Of a stretch of DNA of 64,000 nt, positions 11,688 through 17,020 are shown piece after piece. The notes beneath the pieces are model-generated. The model saw only the letters and a program-made list of their open reading frames with translations, made no database searches and was not told the DNA's origin. How positions within the stretch are numbered: position 1 is the stretch's first letter; each line of letters begins with the position of its first letter. Location of the stretch: contig NZ_CP109078.1 in the NCBI RefSeq assembly GCF_035917455.1, positions 2,790,001 to 2,854,000 of the forward strand, written 5' to 3'. The translations under genes and the position numbers were made by a program. Source of the stretch: Micromonospora sp. NBC_01796 (GTDB lineage Bacteria > Actinomycetota > Actinomycetes > Mycobacteriales > Micromonosporaceae).

Positions 11688-12767
11688 TCAGCGTACGTCC
11701 GGGTTCTTGTCGCGAAGTGCCTGCGCGACGGCGTCGCGGACCCGGCCGTCCTCGCGCTGCTTGCGCCGGGCACGGTTGCGGCGGGCGAACAGGTACGCCC
11801 CGACGACAACGGCGATCAGTACGACGACCAGCACCAGGAGCTGCCACGGAGTGGCCCAGCCGTGTGTCGTGCCCTTGACCGGTTCGAGCGGGGTAGTGGA
11901 ACCCGACGCGTCGGTGAGCAGGGGCGTCAGGGTCGCGGTCGCGGCCAGCCTCAGCGCGGGCGCCACACCGTGCACGGGTACGGACACCTTCCGGCTCTCA
12001 CCCGGTAGCAGCTCCGGCGGCGCCTTGATCTCGCCCGCGTCGACCCGCAGCCAACCGAACGGGCCGGAGACCGACACGGCCTGCTGGGCGGACAGGACGG
12101 CGTTCCCGGTGTTGTGGATCGTGTACGTGACCGTGGCGTCGCCCTTGGCGAAGGGGTTGGACGTGCCGTCGTAGTCCACGTGCAGGTCCTCGATCGCGAG
12201 GTTCGGCTTGAGCTCGCCGCCGACCCGCAGCTTGATCCGGATACCGAGGCGCCGGTCCACGTTGATCCCCGCCGCCTGGTCGGGCTGGGTCAGGGAGGTC
12301 AGGATGCCGCCCACGTAGTCGCCGGGCGTGGCGTTGCCCGGCACGGTGACCTTGAAGGGGACCTGGGCGGTCTTGCCGGGCTCGACGTGGACGCTGCCGC
12401 CGCCGGCCTTGACCCAGGCACCGACGCCGACGGACTTCCCGTCCTTGGCGAGCAGGTCGAGTTGGCCGGTGTCGGTCGTGAAGCCGTCTGCGGCGTAGAC
12501 GGTCAGGTCGAGCGCGACCGGTCCGTGGTTGGCGACGACCATGGCGTCGTCGACCGCGCCACCGGGGTTGACGGCGTAGCTGAAGCTGGACCGGTCGGCG
12601 CCGTAGCTGTTCGAGGCCGTCCTCACCGTCCAGGCGACATCGCCGTCCGCCGCCAGGGCTGGGCCGGCGGCCAGGCCGACGACCGCGAAGACCGCGATCA
12701 GGGCCAGAGCCGCGGTACGGAGAAAGGCGGCGACGCCTGTGTTCCGGGGCGTTGTGGACGATTGCAT
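11688..12767 (-). CDS. DUF916 / WxL-interacting-type membrane-anchored protein
   Basis: 359-residue surface protein. Seen: signal peptide (AALALIAVFAVVGLAAGPALA), a peptidoglycan-binding-like DUF916 domain (about residues 45-180: FSYAVNPGGAVDDAMVVAN, and PGDYVGGILTSL), a second Ig-like domain (about 190-300: YTIHNTGNAVLS), one transmembrane helix and a basic Arg/Lys tail. This matches the Firmicute WxL-interacting proteins that bind WxL domains and peptidoglycan. It lies 92 bases downstream of a phosphatase with a WxL-like tail, so they are probable partners. ATG 12767 is preceded by GAGG. Confidence 0.8.
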   Translation of the reverse strand: MQSSTTPRNTGVAAFLRTAALALIAVFAVVGLAAGPALAADGDVAWTVRTASNSYGADRSSFSYAVNPGGAVDDAMVVANHGPVALDLTVYAADGFTTDTGQLDLLAKDGKSVGVGAWVKAGGGSVHVEPGKTAQVPFKVTVPGNATPGDYVGGILTSLTQPDQAAGINVDRRLGIRIKLRVGGELKPNLAIEDLHVDYDGTSNPFAKGDATVTYTIHNTGNAVLSAQQAVSVSGPFGWLRVDAGEIKAPPELLPGESRKVSVPVHGVAPALRLAATATLTPLLTDASGSTTPLEPVKGTTHGWATPWQLLVLVVVLIAVVVGAYLFARRNRARRKQREDGRVRDAVAQALRDKNPDVR

Positions 12768-12859
12768 CTCGTGGTCCTCAGGGGATCTGGAGCGGGTTGG
12801 AGCGGAGCGGCGGGGTAAGCACCCGCAGGTGCCTACCCCGCCCGGCAATGCGGATCCGA

Positions 12860-14785
12860 TCAGCTGCTCAGCGCGGTGATCGTGAGGGTGGCGCGGTAGT
12901 TGCCCTTCGCGATGCTGTCCGGGAACTTCAGACCCAGGTCGGCACCGAGCTTGGCCGAGCCACGGGGGTGGCCCTGCTCGGCCGAACCGAGGCCGCGCGA
13001 GACAGACAGGCCCTGGCCCTGGTCGTCGTACGAGGAGAGCACCGGAGCGCTGGCCTGGGCACCGGCACCCGCGTCGAGCACGTACGGGGTCCAGCCGAGG
13101 TAGGAGCCGGAGAACTTCTTGCTGCCGTCCTGGAAGTCACCCACGCTGGCCGAGATCGACCACGGGGAGAGCGAGCGACGGCTGTCCGACACGATGATCG
13201 GGTTGATCTTGCCCGCCGCCTCGAAGTGGTTGCCGTTGACCTCCTGCGCGGTGCCGAGGTCCACCAGGCCGTTGTTGCCGTCGATCGTCCAGCCGAACTC
13301 GCCCGGAGCCACGTCCGGCACGTTGACCTGGAGGTCCTGGCCGTCGGCGTGGAGCGGGTGCACCGAGACCTTGTCAACGATCGAGCCCACGCCCTGGTCG
13401 CCGTTGGCGGCGCTGCGGATGTTCTCGACCACGAGCTTGTCGTTGCGTACCTGGACCTTGACGTAGGTCCGGACGTGCTCCTGGTTCTCGACCGAGTTGT
13501 ACCAGTAGTTGTCCGGGTTCAGCGGGTCGGCGCCGTTGCCCGCGCCGCTGGTGCCGCTGCTGTCCGGCTTGGTGATGTCGTAGTACTTCGAGCCGGAGGC
13601 CGAGTTCGCGGTGACGTAGAGGACGCCGCCGGGGCCGGCGACGACGTCTTCGGCACCGGGCTGCTCGTTCGGGTCCGCCTTCTCGCCGTTCTTGATCAGG
13701 TAGCTACGGGAGTAGCTGTGGTCGTGGCCCTGGAGCACCATGTCGACGCCGAGCTTCGAGAACGTGGTCGGGAAGTCGACGCGGCGGGCCTTGTTGTCGC
13801 CGTCCTTGGCGTGCGAGGCCGGCGAGTAGATCGAGTGGTGGTAGACGAGGACCTTCCACTTGGCCTCGGCACCGTGCTGGTTGATGACGTCGGTGACGTA
13901 CGCGGTGTGCGCCTCGTCGCCGCCGCCGCCCGAGGAGGTGGCGTAGCTGTTGCTGTTCAGGTCGATGAACAGCACGTCCTTGTAGATGTACCAGTAGTCG
14001 CCACCCGAGGTGTTGGAGGCCGGGTTCCCGTTGGCGTAGTACGGGGCCGAGCGGTCCGTGTTCGGGGTGAAGTGGTGCTGCTCCCAGGCCTTGCCGCCGA
14101 CGTCGTGGTTACCGATGGTCGCCGCGACGGGGTACTGGCGAAGCTGGTCGGGGGCGAGGAAGGCGTTCCACTGGGCCTCGGTGTTCGCCGTCTCGACGTG
14201 GTCACCGCCGGACACCAGCATCTCGATGTTCGGGTTGGCGGTGAGCGCGACGTTCAGGGTGTCCTGCCAACCGGCCTGGTCCTTGGCGATGTCGCCGGAG
14301 GAGCCGATCTGCGGGTCGCCGAAGAACAGGAAGTCGTAGTCGCCCTCGAAGTCCTGCGTCTTGAACGAGTACGCCGGGGACCAGTTGCCCTCGGCGCCGA
14401 CACGGTACGAGTACGCCGTGTGCTCCTTCAGACCGGTGATCGTGGCGTGGCGGTTAAAGCCGCCGCTGGTGGCGATGTTCGCCCCACCGGTGGCGTCGAA
14501 GCTGAGGGCGCCGGCCGGGAACTCGCCGTTGACGATCTCGGCGGTCGGGGCCAGTTGGATCTTCTGTGCGGTGTCGGCCGAGGAGTACCAGGTCACGATG
14601 CGCTGGGTCTCGTCGGCGCCCACACCGAGGACGATGCCGGTGAGCGAGGTGGACTCGGCTGCGCTGGCAGCGGACGCCAGGCCGCTACCGGCGGCTACCG
14701 CCAAGCCCAGGAATGCCGCCGTGGCCCCTGCGGCCACTCGGCGCCGCACAAGCCCGGAGGCTCGTGTCGTGTTGCTCGATGTCAT
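12860..14785 (-). CDS. Secreted purple-acid-type metallophosphatase with WxL-like C-terminus
   Basis: 641-residue exported phosphoesterase. Seen: signal peptide (to about 43, ASAAE); an N-terminal FN3-like purple acid phosphatase domain (about 45-140, SYRVGAEG); a calcineurin-like catalytic domain (145-400) with the metal ligands in FFGDPQ, SGGDHVE, TIGNHD, YHHSIYSP and LQGHDHSYSR; then a beta-rich tail (455-641) with FGWTIDG, PWSISASVGDF and YRATLTITAL, resembling a WxL cell-wall-binding domain with Ile in place of Leu. A PHO box 100 bases upstream indicates induction by phosphate starvation. ATG 14785 follows AAGGA. Confidence 0.85.
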   Translation of the reverse strand: MTSSNTTRASGLVRRRVAAGATAAFLGLAVAAGSGLASAASAAESTSLTGIVLGVGADETQRIVTWYSSADTAQKIQLAPTAEIVNGEFPAGALSFDATGGANIATSGGFNRHATITGLKEHTAYSYRVGAEGNWSPAYSFKTQDFEGDYDFLFFGDPQIGSSGDIAKDQAGWQDTLNVALTANPNIEMLVSGGDHVETANTEAQWNAFLAPDQLRQYPVAATIGNHDVGGKAWEQHHFTPNTDRSAPYYANGNPASNTSGGDYWYIYKDVLFIDLNSNSYATSSGGGGDEAHTAYVTDVINQHGAEAKWKVLVYHHSIYSPASHAKDGDNKARRVDFPTTFSKLGVDMVLQGHDHSYSRSYLIKNGEKADPNEQPGAEDVVAGPGGVLYVTANSASGSKYYDITKPDSSGTSGAGNGADPLNPDNYWYNSVENQEHVRTYVKVQVRNDKLVVENIRSAANGDQGVGSIVDKVSVHPLHADGQDLQVNVPDVAPGEFGWTIDGNNGLVDLGTAQEVNGNHFEAAGKINPIIVSDSRRSLSPWSISASVGDFQDGSKKFSGSYLGWTPYVLDAGAGAQASAPVLSSYDDQGQGLSVSRGLGSAEQGHPRGSAKLGADLGLKFPDSIAKGNYRATLTITALSS

Positions 14786-14819
14786 CGATTTCCGTTCCTT
14801 GTTCGATAGAGACATGGAG

Positions 14820-14847
14820 AGCTTTCCAATAGATATATGGAAAAGCT
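14820..14847 (-). promoter_or_regulatory. AT-rich leader hairpin of the phosphatase gene
   Basis: AGCTTTTCCA pairs with TGGAAAGCT around an AT-rich loop, 35-60 bases before the start codon. It is conspicuous against the GC-rich surroundings; mRNA stabilisation or a regulator site is possible, neither shown. Confidence 0.35.
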
Positions 14848-14885
14848 TTTCCCGATGACGGGGAATCGCATCTCAAGCTTTACCT

Positions 14886-14907
14886 GGATGATGAACCCGT
14901 CATGAAC
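14886..14907 (-). promoter_or_regulatory. PHO box (PhoP direct repeats)
   Basis: On the minus strand two adjacent 11-base units, GTTCATGACGG and GTTCATCATCC, fit the actinomycete PhoP repeat GTTCACC-N4 at 5 and 6 of 7 conserved positions. The box lies about 100 bases before the start of a secreted phosphatase, exactly the gene type such boxes control. Confidence 0.72.
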
Positions 14908-14951
14908 GTGATCTTGCGGCTGCCTGGACTTTCCGAGATACCTGGACTGAC

Positions 14952-16169
14952 TCAGGACCCGGACACGCGTTCAATGAACCAGATCAGCCCCATGATGGAC
15001 ACGCCCGCAGAAACGACACCGGTCGCCCAGAGTCCGAGTTTCGGCGCACGGCGCCGCAATACGATCAGCAACGGGAACACCACCGCGATGATCGTCAACT
15101 GCACGGTTTCGATACCTACGTTGAACACCAGCAGGGACCACAGCAGAGTCCAGGACCAGGCTTCGTTGATTCCCAGCGCACCGGCGAAACCCAGGCCGTG
15201 CACGAGACCGAAGCAGAACACCACCCCGAGCCGAATCCAGCCCCGACGATCGAGACTGAAGTGCCCCCGGCCCGCCGTCTCCAGGTCGGTGGCGTGGTCA
15301 CCACGTCGCCAGATCCCCCACAGGTGCCAGCCGGCGACCACGGCGATCGACAACGCGATCACGGGTTCCACGACACTCCCGGGCACGTCGACCAGGCCGA
15401 GGGCGGCGAGCATGAACGTCACCGAGTGCGCCAGGGTGAAGCTGGTGGCGGCGAGCACGATCTCCCGCAGCCGCCGCGACCCGGCGATGAGCGCCACCAG
15501 GAACAGGATGTGGTCGATCCCGGTGAGCAGGTGCTCGGCACCCAGGACGAAGAACTCCCGGAATCGCTCGTACCAGGCCTGCCCGGTGGAGAAGGACGGG
15601 TTGGCCGAGTCGAGCGCGGCAGAGCCGGAGCGACCGTCGATCTCGTACGTGACGATCGTCTTGGTGCCCTTGACGTAACCCTCCCCGTCAGGGAAAAGAC
15701 CGCTGCGGACCTCGTGCGCGTCGGTCCGCTCCGGGCAGGTCCAGTCGAACACCAGATCGGCGTACGGCACGCCCTCCCGCTCGGTCATCGCCACGTCGCC
15801 GACCTGCATCGCCGTACAGGACTCACCATCCGAGGTCACAGAGAAGCGCTCGGTGACATATTTGGTGGCCGACTGCGCGTGGGTCTTCAGCGCCGCCGCC
15901 TGCGCCCCGGTGTCGCCCGCGTCGAATGCGGCGGTTCCTTCCCGGAAGAGAGAATCGTCGTCCTCGTAGTCGGCGGCGGACACCACAAAGAGGTCGTATT
16001 CGAGCCCCAGCTTCGTCCGTATGTGACCCTCGTCTCCCGCTGTGATATTCGCGTACACAGTCGACGAAAATCCATGGGCGAACGCCGGTACGGCGTTCAG
16101 AATAGCGATGACTGCCGCCGCGATCCCGACAACGGTGACGATAACGGTACGGCGGACGGGTCTCATCAT
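14952..16169 (-). CDS. HupE/UreJ-like membrane protein
   Basis: 405-residue membrane protein. Seen: signal-like N-terminus ending AFAHGF, an extracytoplasmic domain of about 190 residues with two Cys (SCTAMQ, WTCPE), then 6-7 transmembrane helices carrying conserved His: HLLTGIDHILFL, FTLAHSVTFML and LVHGLGFAGALG. This is the HupE/UreJ_2 family, thought to move nickel, cobalt or other divalent metal. It precedes the metallophosphatase on the same strand, so supply of its metal is a reasonable guess. Two in-frame ATGs (16169, 16166) follow GAGGGAG. Confidence 0.82.
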   Translation of the reverse strand: MMRPVRRTVIVTVVGIAAAVIAILNAVPAFAHGFSSTVYANITAGDEGHIRTKLGLEYDLFVVSAADYEDDDSLFREGTAAFDAGDTGAQAAALKTHAQSATKYVTERFSVTSDGESCTAMQVGDVAMTEREGVPYADLVFDWTCPERTDAHEVRSGLFPDGEGYVKGTKTIVTYEIDGRSGSAALDSANPSFSTGQAWYERFREFFVLGAEHLLTGIDHILFLVALIAGSRRLREIVLAATSFTLAHSVTFMLAALGLVDVPGSVVEPVIALSIAVVAGWHLWGIWRRGDHATDLETAGRGHFSLDRRGWIRLGVVFCFGLVHGLGFAGALGINEAWSWTLLWSLLVFNVGIETVQLTIIAVVFPLLIVLRRRAPKLGLWATGVVSAGVSIMGLIWFIERVSGS

Positions 16170-16205
16170 GCGGCTCCCTCGTAATGGCCAGTGCACGTTG
16201 CATGG

Positions 16206-16238
16206 CGAGGGTTAACACCAGCCCGACCACCGGCGAAC
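16206..16238 (-). promoter_or_regulatory. Possible weak PHO-like repeats
   Basis: On the minus strand units GTTCGCC, GTCGGGC and GTTAACC recur every 11 bases; the outer two match the PhoP consensus at 6 of 7 positions, the middle one poorly. They sit 37-70 bases before the HupE-like start. Weak evidence for co-regulation with the phosphatase. Confidence 0.3.
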
Positions 16239-16351: not shown

Positions 16352-17020
16352 TTGCGCCCTCCGCTTCGGGCCGTTGTCACGCTGGCCACGGTCGCCGCCT
16401 TGGTCACCGGATGCAGCTCCGGCGACGACTGGTCCCGGCCACATCCCAAGCCCATCGCCATCGGCACTCTCGGCCCGGGTTTCGTCGACCCCTCCGCCCG
16501 CCCCGCCCCGGAGGCGACCGTCACCCCGCAACCCGGCTCGTGGGACGCGGTGCACCCGTCGAAGGGCTACCGGGTGGTGCTGCTCACCGCGGGTGACGAC
16601 AGCCCGACCAAGGCCCTCGTGAAGGCTGTCAAGGACTGGGCGGAGGACGAGGACGTCGACCTCAGGACGGTGACCGCCGACCTCCACGACCCCGTCACCA
16701 GCATCACCAAGGCCCTCGGGATGAGCCCGGACCTCATCGTCAGTGCGGGCAACGACCTCGTCGACCCGCTCACGCTGGTCGCCCCGAGCCACCTGTCACA
16801 GCCGATCCTCGTAGTGGGCGCGGAACTGGCCGAGCCGACCCACAACGTCACGTCAGTCGACTGGTCCGGCGCATCGTTCCGTGGCGAGGGGGTCAACGCG
16901 TCGTCGACGTACGACCCCGCCTCGTTCACTCCCGAGCGCTGCGCGGCGGCCATCAGGGCGGGCGTCGCCGCCGTACTCAACGACCTGACCGGAATCGTGG
17001 TCTGGCTCGACCAGCTCTAG
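16352..17020 (+). CDS. Lipoprotein with BMP-like fold
   Basis: 222-residue predicted lipoprotein. Seen: short signal peptide with lipobox VTGC (Cys about 21), a Pro-rich spacer to about 65, then an alternating strand/helix domain (YRVVLLTAGDD, SPDLIVSAGNDLVDPL, ILVVGAEL) resembling the first lobe of basic-membrane-protein/periplasmic-binding folds. The second lobe is missing, so it may be a shortened sensor or binding protein. The start is TTG 16352, 7 bases after AGAGGA. No ABC-transporter genes are adjacent. Ligand unknown. Confidence 0.7.
   Translation: MRPPLRAVVTLATVAALVTGCSSGDDWSRPHPKPIAIGTLGPGFVDPSARPAPEATVTPQPGSWDAVHPSKGYRVVLLTAGDDSPTKALVKAVKDWAEDEDVDLRTVTADLHDPVTSITKALGMSPDLIVSAGNDLVDPLTLVAPSHLSQPILVVGAELAEPTHNVTSVDWSGASFRGEGVNASSTYDPASFTPERCAAAIRAGVAAVLNDLTGIVVWLDQL

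Follow-up and report, generated by a model that had tools for sequence, protein, structure and literature searches.

A predicted phosphate-controlled phosphatase with a WxL-like tail and its DUF916 neighbour in Micromonospora sp. NBC_01796

Can a WxL/DUF916 pair hold an enzyme at the surface of a soil actinomycete? In published accounts, WxL gene clusters are nearly limited to Bacilli and are interpreted in terms of host adhesion and virulence. A literature search for WxL in actinomycetes yielded nothing relevant, and the literature consulted makes no mention of this WxL-tailed phosphatase locus. Such a locus was analysed here in a window of 64,000 nucleotides (the whole stretch of DNA studied; contig NZ_CP109078.1, positions 2,790,001 to 2,854,000). 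All positions below are those of the window.

Gene set and predicted phosphate control

The locus contained the following genes and intergenic elements:
11688..12767, minus strand: DUF916 / WxLIP-like membrane protein, 359 aa (Pfam PF06030; sequence; alignment)
12809..12842, minus strand: GC-rich 15-bp stem-loop between the phosphatase and DUF916 genes (folding of the 95-nt spacer)
12860..14815, minus strand: secreted metallophosphatase of the purple-acid type, ending in the WxL-like tail (start ATG 14815 or 14785; Pfam PF16656 and PF00149)
14886..14907, minus strand: PHO box, two 11-nt direct repeats GTTCATGACGG GTTCATCATCC (sequence; conserved upstream of orthologues)
14952..16169, minus strand: HupE/UreJ_2 membrane protein whose N-terminal region is extracytoplasmic (ATG at 16169; the ORF may open at 16196)
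16352..17020, plus strand: small, divergently transcribed lipoprotein, 222 aa (invariant lipobox Cys21)

The HupE-like, phosphatase and DUF916 genes all lie on the minus strand. The one-strand arrangement proposed in a first-pass annotation was borne out by minus-strand ORFs and Pfam matches, including that of the HupE-like membrane protein to HupE_UreJ_2 (PF13795, E 2.1e-34), which places it in this family. The annotated gene set was incomplete, as the fourth conserved gene (16352-17020) had been overlooked. This lipoprotein gene was present in 78/80 named loci and 22/23 orthologue loci. Its profile matched TmpC/PnrA in the PDB (2fqw, E 7.7e-5), and the best Foldseek matches of its AF2 model (pLDDT 81.7) were PnrA and the C. 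difficile lipoprotein fragment 4ycs (TMt 0.75). The matches span approximately one lobe of the two-lobe PnrA/BMP periplasmic-binding fold. Sequence and fold of this lobe thus resemble the PnrA/TmpC/BMP nucleoside-binding lipoproteins (PDB 2fqw, 6y9u), whereas the second lobe and an adjoining ABC transporter are missing.

The PHO box is located between the HupE-like and phosphatase genes and consists of the two 11-nt direct repeat units by which PHO boxes are defined (PMC7866108). The exact pattern GTTCA-N6-GTTCA was found upstream of 38/103 orthologues (0.27 expected from shuffles) and never on the other strand. Of the remaining 65 orthologues, 48 scored above the 99% null level for a matrix derived from the exact sites. 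The box noted before the phosphatase gene is therefore conserved, and control via PhoP is predicted from it. The same GTTCA-type repeat pair precedes a secreted phosphatase gene in the PhoP-controlled Pho regulon of Streptomyces (PMC7866108). Upstream of the HupE-like gene, an exact box was absent in 94/95 loci. The locus is, as read from sequence, a phosphate-starvation-linked gene set, and many soil actinomycetes have one. The 95-nt spacer between the phosphatase and DUF916 genes, which contains the stem-loop, gave an MFE of -42.8 kcal/mol (z -2.6).

Catalytic part and WxL-like tail of the phosphatase

Within the phosphatase, the following parts were distinguished:
13361..14650, minus strand: catalytic part, residues 46-475 (alignments of 17 and 39 orthologues)
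12863..13342, minus strand: WxL-like tail, residues 482-641 (homology to WxL domains; AF2 model)
13289..13291, minus strand: Trp499 in GEFGWTIDG, within the tail's first strand (aligned with the C-terminal W of untailed orthologues)
13154..13162, minus strand: proximal WxL-like motif W542-S-I544 (alignment of orthologues)
12869..12898, minus strand: distal motif Y630RATLTITAL (sequence; canonical YxxxLTWxL)

An N-terminal purple acid phosphatase domain (Pur_ac_phosph_N, 8.5e-16) and a Metallophos domain (4.7e-10) were detected by Pfam, in agreement with Foldseek, by which the AF2 model of the phosphatase matched plant purple acid phosphatases and phytases (E to 2.9e-20; the catalytic part dominates this full-length search, which is uninformative for the tail). 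Like the plant-type purple acid phosphatases and the purple acid phytase of wheat (PDB 3zk4, 6gj2, 1kbp), the protein has an N-terminal fibronectin-like and a calcineurin-like domain, with conserved candidate metal ligands. These candidates, D157, D195, N226, H227, H316/H317, H354 and H356, were invariant in the alignments of 17 and 39 orthologues. In contrast to the plant-type enzymes, the Micromonospora protein carries a bacterial surface tail, and Glu198 occupies the position of the Tyr metal ligand in the GDxxY motif, so purple colour is not expected. Of the earlier description as a secreted purple-acid-type phosphatase, the metallophosphatase fold was retained, and the label 'purple' became doubtful because of Glu198.

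Metal supply by the HupE-like protein had also been proposed. The gene is strongly linked to the locus: it adjoins the phosphatase gene in nearly all tailed loci (65/67 by sequence match, including four Microbacteriaceae loci with a different HupE-like gene, located downstream instead). The enzyme is a metallophosphatase, and the whole locus might then be read as a metal-loading system. Yet nothing ties the gene to metal loading, as PF13795 has no demonstrated substrate here, and a literature search for HupE with phosphatases yielded nothing relevant. Moreover, the N-terminus of the phosphatase, VRRRVAAGATAAFLG, resembles a twin-arginine signal; export by this route would imply that the enzyme folds and receives its metal in the cytoplasm. 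The PHO box sits between the two genes, and an exact box upstream of the HupE-like gene is nearly always absent. A role in feeding metal to the phosphatase is accordingly regarded as quite improbable.

The tail forms the C-terminal 160 residues (482-641) of a secreted protein with an N-terminal signal-like segment, within the range of 160-190 residues typical of WxL domains. Its AF2 model was all-beta, with pLDDT values of about 80-94 from residue 511 onwards and about 58-64 over residues 491-510. The tail alone had no Pfam match at E up to 10, thus remaining below the curated cut-off for the WxL domain (PF13731), and an NCBIfam scan was also empty. Homology was therefore established via an intermediate WxL domain and profiles. 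With the tail as single query, a Pfam-accepted WxL domain encoded elsewhere in the source genome, at 7.55 Mb, was matched with E 1.6e-9 and 34% identity. A profile of phosphatase tails matched 8/10 other loci fetched with the Pfam WxL profile (E 1.5e-27 to 5e-3, computed in a small ORF set); two were not significant. By these matches the tail is a member of the WxL superfamily, distant from the Firmicutes form. The WxL-like domain, which the first-pass annotation considered its weakest link, thus held up and did not fall into an unrelated family, although the profile search suggested there succeeded only through the own-genome WxL domain and tail profiles and failed with the Pfam profile.

Both canonical Trp-x-Leu motifs are altered. 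The proximal motif reads W-S-I, as had been recognised (W-x-I for W-x-L), and W542 did not vary among 17 orthologues or over a diverse set of tails. In the distal motif, canonically YxxxLTWxL (PMC5817068), I replaces W and A replaces L. These replaced residues, together with the missing direct Pfam match, would suit a bacterial Ig-like module that is unrelated to WxL and similar to it only by chance; the E value to the Pfam-accepted WxL domain, the profile matches and the systematic adjacency of DUF916 genes make this explanation extremely unlikely.

DUF916 partner and the untailed clade

Two features of the DUF916 protein are needed here:
12249..12311, minus strand: loop GGILTSLTQPDQAAGINVDRR, residues 180-200 (candidate contact with the tail)
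12249-12269, minus strand: loop strand GINVDRR (alignment columns of tailed versus untailed partners)

The DUF916 ORF opens at 12848 in the ORF list, and the ATG at 12767 is the likely start. The product exceeded the Pfam cut-off for WxLIP_PGBD (PF06030; 31.9 bits versus 27.3) and comprises a signal peptide, the DUF916 domain, a second beta domain, a C-terminal transmembrane helix and a basic cytoplasmic tail. A hydrophobic N-terminus and a helix at residues ~334-356 followed by RRNRARRK were read from the sequence, consistent with the membrane anchoring that had been annotated. In the Pfam scan, DUF3324 (PF11797) was not matched and only a weak CARDB match was seen. At the position of the WxLIP motif NQIDKxxxYFDLK, the protein has the divergent sequence NSYGADRSSFSYAV (sequence, alignment).

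As in WxL gene clusters, the DUF916 gene adjoins the gene for the WxL protein. It lay immediately downstream in 66/67 loci of tailed phosphatase orthologues (locus 67 is cut by a contig end), so the co-occurrence outside the strain, named beforehand as a test, was observed. The tail/DUF916 pair is spread across Actinomycetota, far beyond strain NBC_01796. Among tail genes of any kind in this phylum, 66/75 had DUF916 directly downstream, and for some WxL-tailed genes an adjacent DUF916 was absent. All DUF916 genes of the source genome (5/5) come after a secreted protein bearing a WxL-like tail. By homology, the phosphatase thus ends in a distant WxL relative, and the next gene encodes the matching membrane partner.

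In one clade the phosphatase lacks the WxL-like domain, while DUF916 is retained in 12/13 loci (locus 13 is cut by a contig end), as is the whole gene neighbourhood. DUF916 is hence not exclusive to tailed enzymes. Supply of a WxL domain by another gene was also considered for these genomes; it fails in 4/13, which contain no WxL-like tail anywhere. The GINVDRR strand was intact in 28/28 partners of tailed enzymes and degraded in 17/17 partners of untailed ones, and an unbiased scan of the ectodomain picked out residues 195-201 as the stretch conserved most strongly with tailed, but not with untailed, partners. A further locus found later agrees with this contrast. As GINVDRR decayed only in partners of untailed enzymes, the loop is a likely contact point for the tail; the untailed enzymes form one group, so the contrast represents a single evolutionary event. 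Untailed phosphatases still terminate with a Trp motif that is conserved (mostly ...WLQ) and may be a remaining docking point.

Persistence of DUF916 after tail loss, including the four tail-free genomes, argues that DUF916 is more than a tail holder. It might chiefly assist the catalytic part, as a subunit or folding partner concerned with activation, stabilisation or access of substrate, with the tail as an extra contact or separate wall-binding module, and much of the protein is indeed still conserved in the untailed clade. Against this, DUF916 also adjoins tails of unrelated proteins (HtaA, small tail-only proteins), so that the common factor is the tail and not the catalytic domain, and GINVDRR is retained only alongside a tail. 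This role is considered unlikely as the principal one. The annotated picture of an enzyme fixed to the wall through DUF916 agrees with the data but is too simple, given the clade that keeps DUF916 without a tail.

Predicted surface retention and other cargo

We infer that the phosphatase is anchored at the surface by DUF916, and the following course is thought probable. When phosphate is scarce, PhoP would induce the phosphatase and its DUF916 partner. The exported enzyme would be caught at the cell surface by pairing of its WxL-like tail with membrane-anchored DUF916, whose GINVDRR strand would complete the beta-sandwich of the tail, as a DUF916 hairpin strand completes WxL in AlphaFold (AF2) predictions for Firmicutes WxL/WxLIP (PMC10599100). 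Captured in this manner, the phosphatase would release phosphate from organic phosphates beside the membrane, within reach of uptake systems. In actinomycetes the same two-part anchor would also retain other proteins of nutrient capture, namely HtaA heme-binding, PstS-like and chitinase-like ones. Physical binding, docking geometry and direct peptidoglycan binding, including that by the tail, are the least certain steps.

Firmicutes WxL domains bind peptidoglycan (PMC5817068), and DUF916 has been proposed to do so (PMC10599100). The tail could accordingly bind peptidoglycan or another wall polymer alone, with DUF916 as an independent wall-binding membrane protein linked by co-regulation only. 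However, the tight one-to-one gene order over many cargo types and the erosion of the loop alongside tail loss both point to direct contact, and separate binding is given little credence.

The WxL/WxLIP (Csc) clusters of Lactobacillales and Bacillales (PMC9772566, PMC10599100, PMC1534035) likewise encode a secreted protein with a C-terminal, all-beta WxL-superfamily domain of ~160 aa, and next to it a protein with signal peptide, DUF916, second domain and C-terminal transmembrane segment. Csc clusters contain small and large WxL proteins besides WxLIP, whereas a single tail-bearing protein is encoded here. The actinomycete locus further differs in its enzyme cargo, the alteration of both WxL motifs, the unmatched DUF3324, its occurrence in soil actinomycetes and its PHO-box control.

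A tailed phosphatase with a membrane partner in soil actinomycetes suggests that the pair anchors working enzymes besides host-binding adhesins. The membrane helix of DUF916 proteins has been proposed to enter host membranes (PMC10599100). The widespread soil version, whose cargo comprises enzymes and binding proteins and whose helix is followed by a basic segment, argues for retention at the bacterium's own surface as the basic job. Natural tail loss with matching loop decay names residues to mutate, by which the modelled interface becomes testable in harmless actinomycetes of the laboratory. The locus also points to a new tag for surface display and, in soil bacteria, to a new means of phosphate scavenging.

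More tentatively, and with somewhat less than even confidence, WxL/DUF916 may give Actinomycetota a general and exchangeable two-piece means of surface retention for proteins of nutrient capture (phosphatase, PstS-like, chitinase, heme-binding), in which the GINVDRR strand is lent to the cargo tail and ..WLQ is a minimal docking tag where the domain was lost. On this reading the transmembrane helix would lie in the membrane of the bacterium itself, and gut Firmicutes would employ the system for host binding as one application. HtaA hemophores of the same genome carry a WxL tail and a downstream DUF916 partner, as the phosphatase does, with the heme-binding HtaA domain instead of the phosphatase. 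Other tailed cargo in actinomycetes comprised PBP_like_2/PstS, GH18 (chitinase-like) and choice-of-anchor M proteins, and small tail-only proteins also have a DUF916 gene alongside.

Locus layout and regulation

The locus lies in positions 2790001-2854000 of the source genome (8.56 Mb, one contig). Three genes follow one another on the minus strand, encoding in this order a membrane protein (HupE/UreJ_2), a secreted phosphatase and a DUF916 protein. Among named phosphatases, the one from Plantactinospora alkalitolerans (Micromonosporaceae) is closest.

Features of the locus (window positions)
16352-17020, plus strand: small divergent lipoprotein, the fourth conserved gene, beside the phosphatase across Actinomycetota
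14952-16169, minus strand: HupE/UreJ_2 membrane protein, first of the three same-strand genes
14886-14907, minus strand: PHO box GTTCATGACGG GTTCATCATCC, between the HupE and phosphatase genes
12860-14815, minus strand: secreted phosphatase; N-terminal domain of the purple-acid type, followed by a calcineurin-like domain
12809-12842, minus strand: perfect 15-bp, GC-rich stem-loop in the spacer of the phosphatase and DUF916 genes
11688-12767, minus strand: DUF916 (WxLIP_PGBD) protein with signal peptide and C-terminal membrane helix
10370-11545, minus strand: transposase with rve integrase core (Pfam, 9.4e-15), directly downstream of the DUF916 gene

As judged from orthologous upstream regions, the PHO box before the phosphatase is conserved. 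The exact double repeat was present upstream of 38/103 orthologues (0.27 expected), and 48 of the remaining 65 scored above the 99% null in a matrix scan; several loci whose phosphatase has no WxL-like tail (untailed) fell below it. A search upstream of HupE found no PHO box. The stem-loop may set the relative expression of phosphatase and DUF916 protein; in many other loci the two genes overlap at this junction instead.

The lipoprotein was found in 78/80 named loci, including those without an upstream HupE. It matched no Pfam family; an AlphaFold model and a sequence profile both point to a resemblance to a single lobe of PnrA-type nucleoside receptors.

Homology of the tail and its pairing with DUF916

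The phosphatase tail was unmatched by Pfam. Used alone as query, it retrieved (E 1.6e-9) a Pfam-accepted WxL domain at 7.55 Mb of the same genome, carried by an HtaA heme-binding protein whose gene has a DUF916 gene directly after it. A profile of 34 phosphatase tails matched 8/10 loci fetched via Pfam's WxL profile and was not significant for 2/10, with E-values calculated on a small ORF set. Shared features of the tails were VxDxR, W-S-[IVL], LGWTP and a terminal YxATLT. AlphaFold predicted an all-beta tail with pLDDT of about 80-94 from residue 511 onward, reduced values over 491-510 and <50 in the linker 479-494. By sequence, phosphatase tail and DUF916 partner are homologous to WxL/WxLIP.

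Their pairing is likewise conserved at the level of gene order. The order HupE, tailed phosphatase, DUF916 was kept in 23/24 family orthologue loci, the exception being a truncated gene. In a set of 80 named loci spread over many families of actinomycetes, DUF916 was next in 66/67 tailed loci (the 67th ended at a contig edge) and HupE was matched in 65/67; four of these 65 matches were a different, downstream HupE-like gene, and Pfam accepts the one tested. For tail-bearing genes of all kinds, DUF916 lay directly downstream in 66 of the 75 tested, and each of the five DUF916 genes in the source genome came after a gene for a secreted protein whose tail is related. Since a genome holds only about five DUF916 genes, this adjacency is far above chance.

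Tail loss and the DUF916 loop

Phosphatases without the WxL-like domain were encountered in 13/80 named loci, with further ones from one family search, and clustered in a single group of the phylogeny (support 95/72). Beyond a linker variable in length and sequence, their C-terminus reads either ..WLQ or W..Q plus T/S-x-T-[AS]-[LV]; the retained Trp aligns with Trp499 in the first tail strand. DUF916 was retained beside them. The GINVDRR loop strand of DUF916 (consensus [IVF]xV[DE]RR) was intact in 28/28 partners of tailed enzymes and deleted or altered in 17/17 partners of untailed ones, a natural experiment without independent replicates because the tail was lost in a single event. Loop decay took several different forms within the untailed clade. 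A Nonomuraea gerenzanensis locus found later combined a phosphatase ending in SSWLQ with an eroded DUF916 loop. In an unbiased scan of the DUF916 ectodomain, residues 195-201 stood out as the stretch with the highest conservation beside tailed enzymes and the lowest beside untailed ones; the sole other region of this kind was the cytoplasmic tail. There, residues 361-380 (REDARV..AV..AL) showed moderate conservation where the phosphatase is tailed, and the untailed clade has lost them.

Proposed anchoring and other cargo

PhoP would induce phosphatase and DUF916 protein, the tail-DUF916 pairing would hold the phosphatase at the surface, and phosphate would be freed near the membrane. Comparative evidence suggests the GINVDRR strand as the tail contact. 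An AlphaFold model of Firmicutes WxL/WxLIP agrees with this assignment (PMC10599100), and the loop probably corresponds to the hairpin of that model, for which the available text gives no residue numbers. The proposal in the first-pass annotation that the HupE-like protein supplies metal found no support.

The actinomycete pair is homologous to WxL/WxLIP and would work alike, but its locus has no dual WxL motif (the proximal one reads W-S-I, and the distal W is replaced by I), DUF3324 or small-plus-large cluster, and should therefore be filed as a WxL variant, not as a standard WxL cluster. In the openly licensed literature, WxL proteins are mainly from Lactobacillales and Bacillales, with emphasis on host binding. 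Further actinomycete cargo carried WxL or WxL-like tails; for several of these genes, no adjacent DUF916 was found within the stretch fetched.

Other proteins and loci with WxL or WxL-like tails (L008-L011, source genome; others, fetched loci)
L242, L243, L252: PstS-like (PBP_like_2) proteins; the fetched stretch shows no neighbouring DUF916 gene
L246: GH18 chitinase-like protein, WxL domain above Pfam's cut-off
L236, L245, L253: choice-of-anchor M proteins
L010:5634-8334 (7.55 Mb): the HtaA protein, then DUF916
L008:5378-7061 and L009:5227-6802 (3.23 and 3.36 Mb): at each, a small secreted protein consisting only of the tail, paired with a divergent DUF916 protein
L011:4737-8991 (8.455 Mb): consecutive genes for a GH43/CBM protein, a WxL-like small secreted protein and a DUF916 protein

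The PstS-like phosphate-binding proteins may use the same anchor, and the HtaA pair is possibly its heme-capture version. In the choice-of-anchor M family, the WxL-like tail is one interchangeable anchor. An additional tail-like match (E 5.7e-12) lay in a 406-aa frame of the source genome (C1:4472873-4473319, minus strand).
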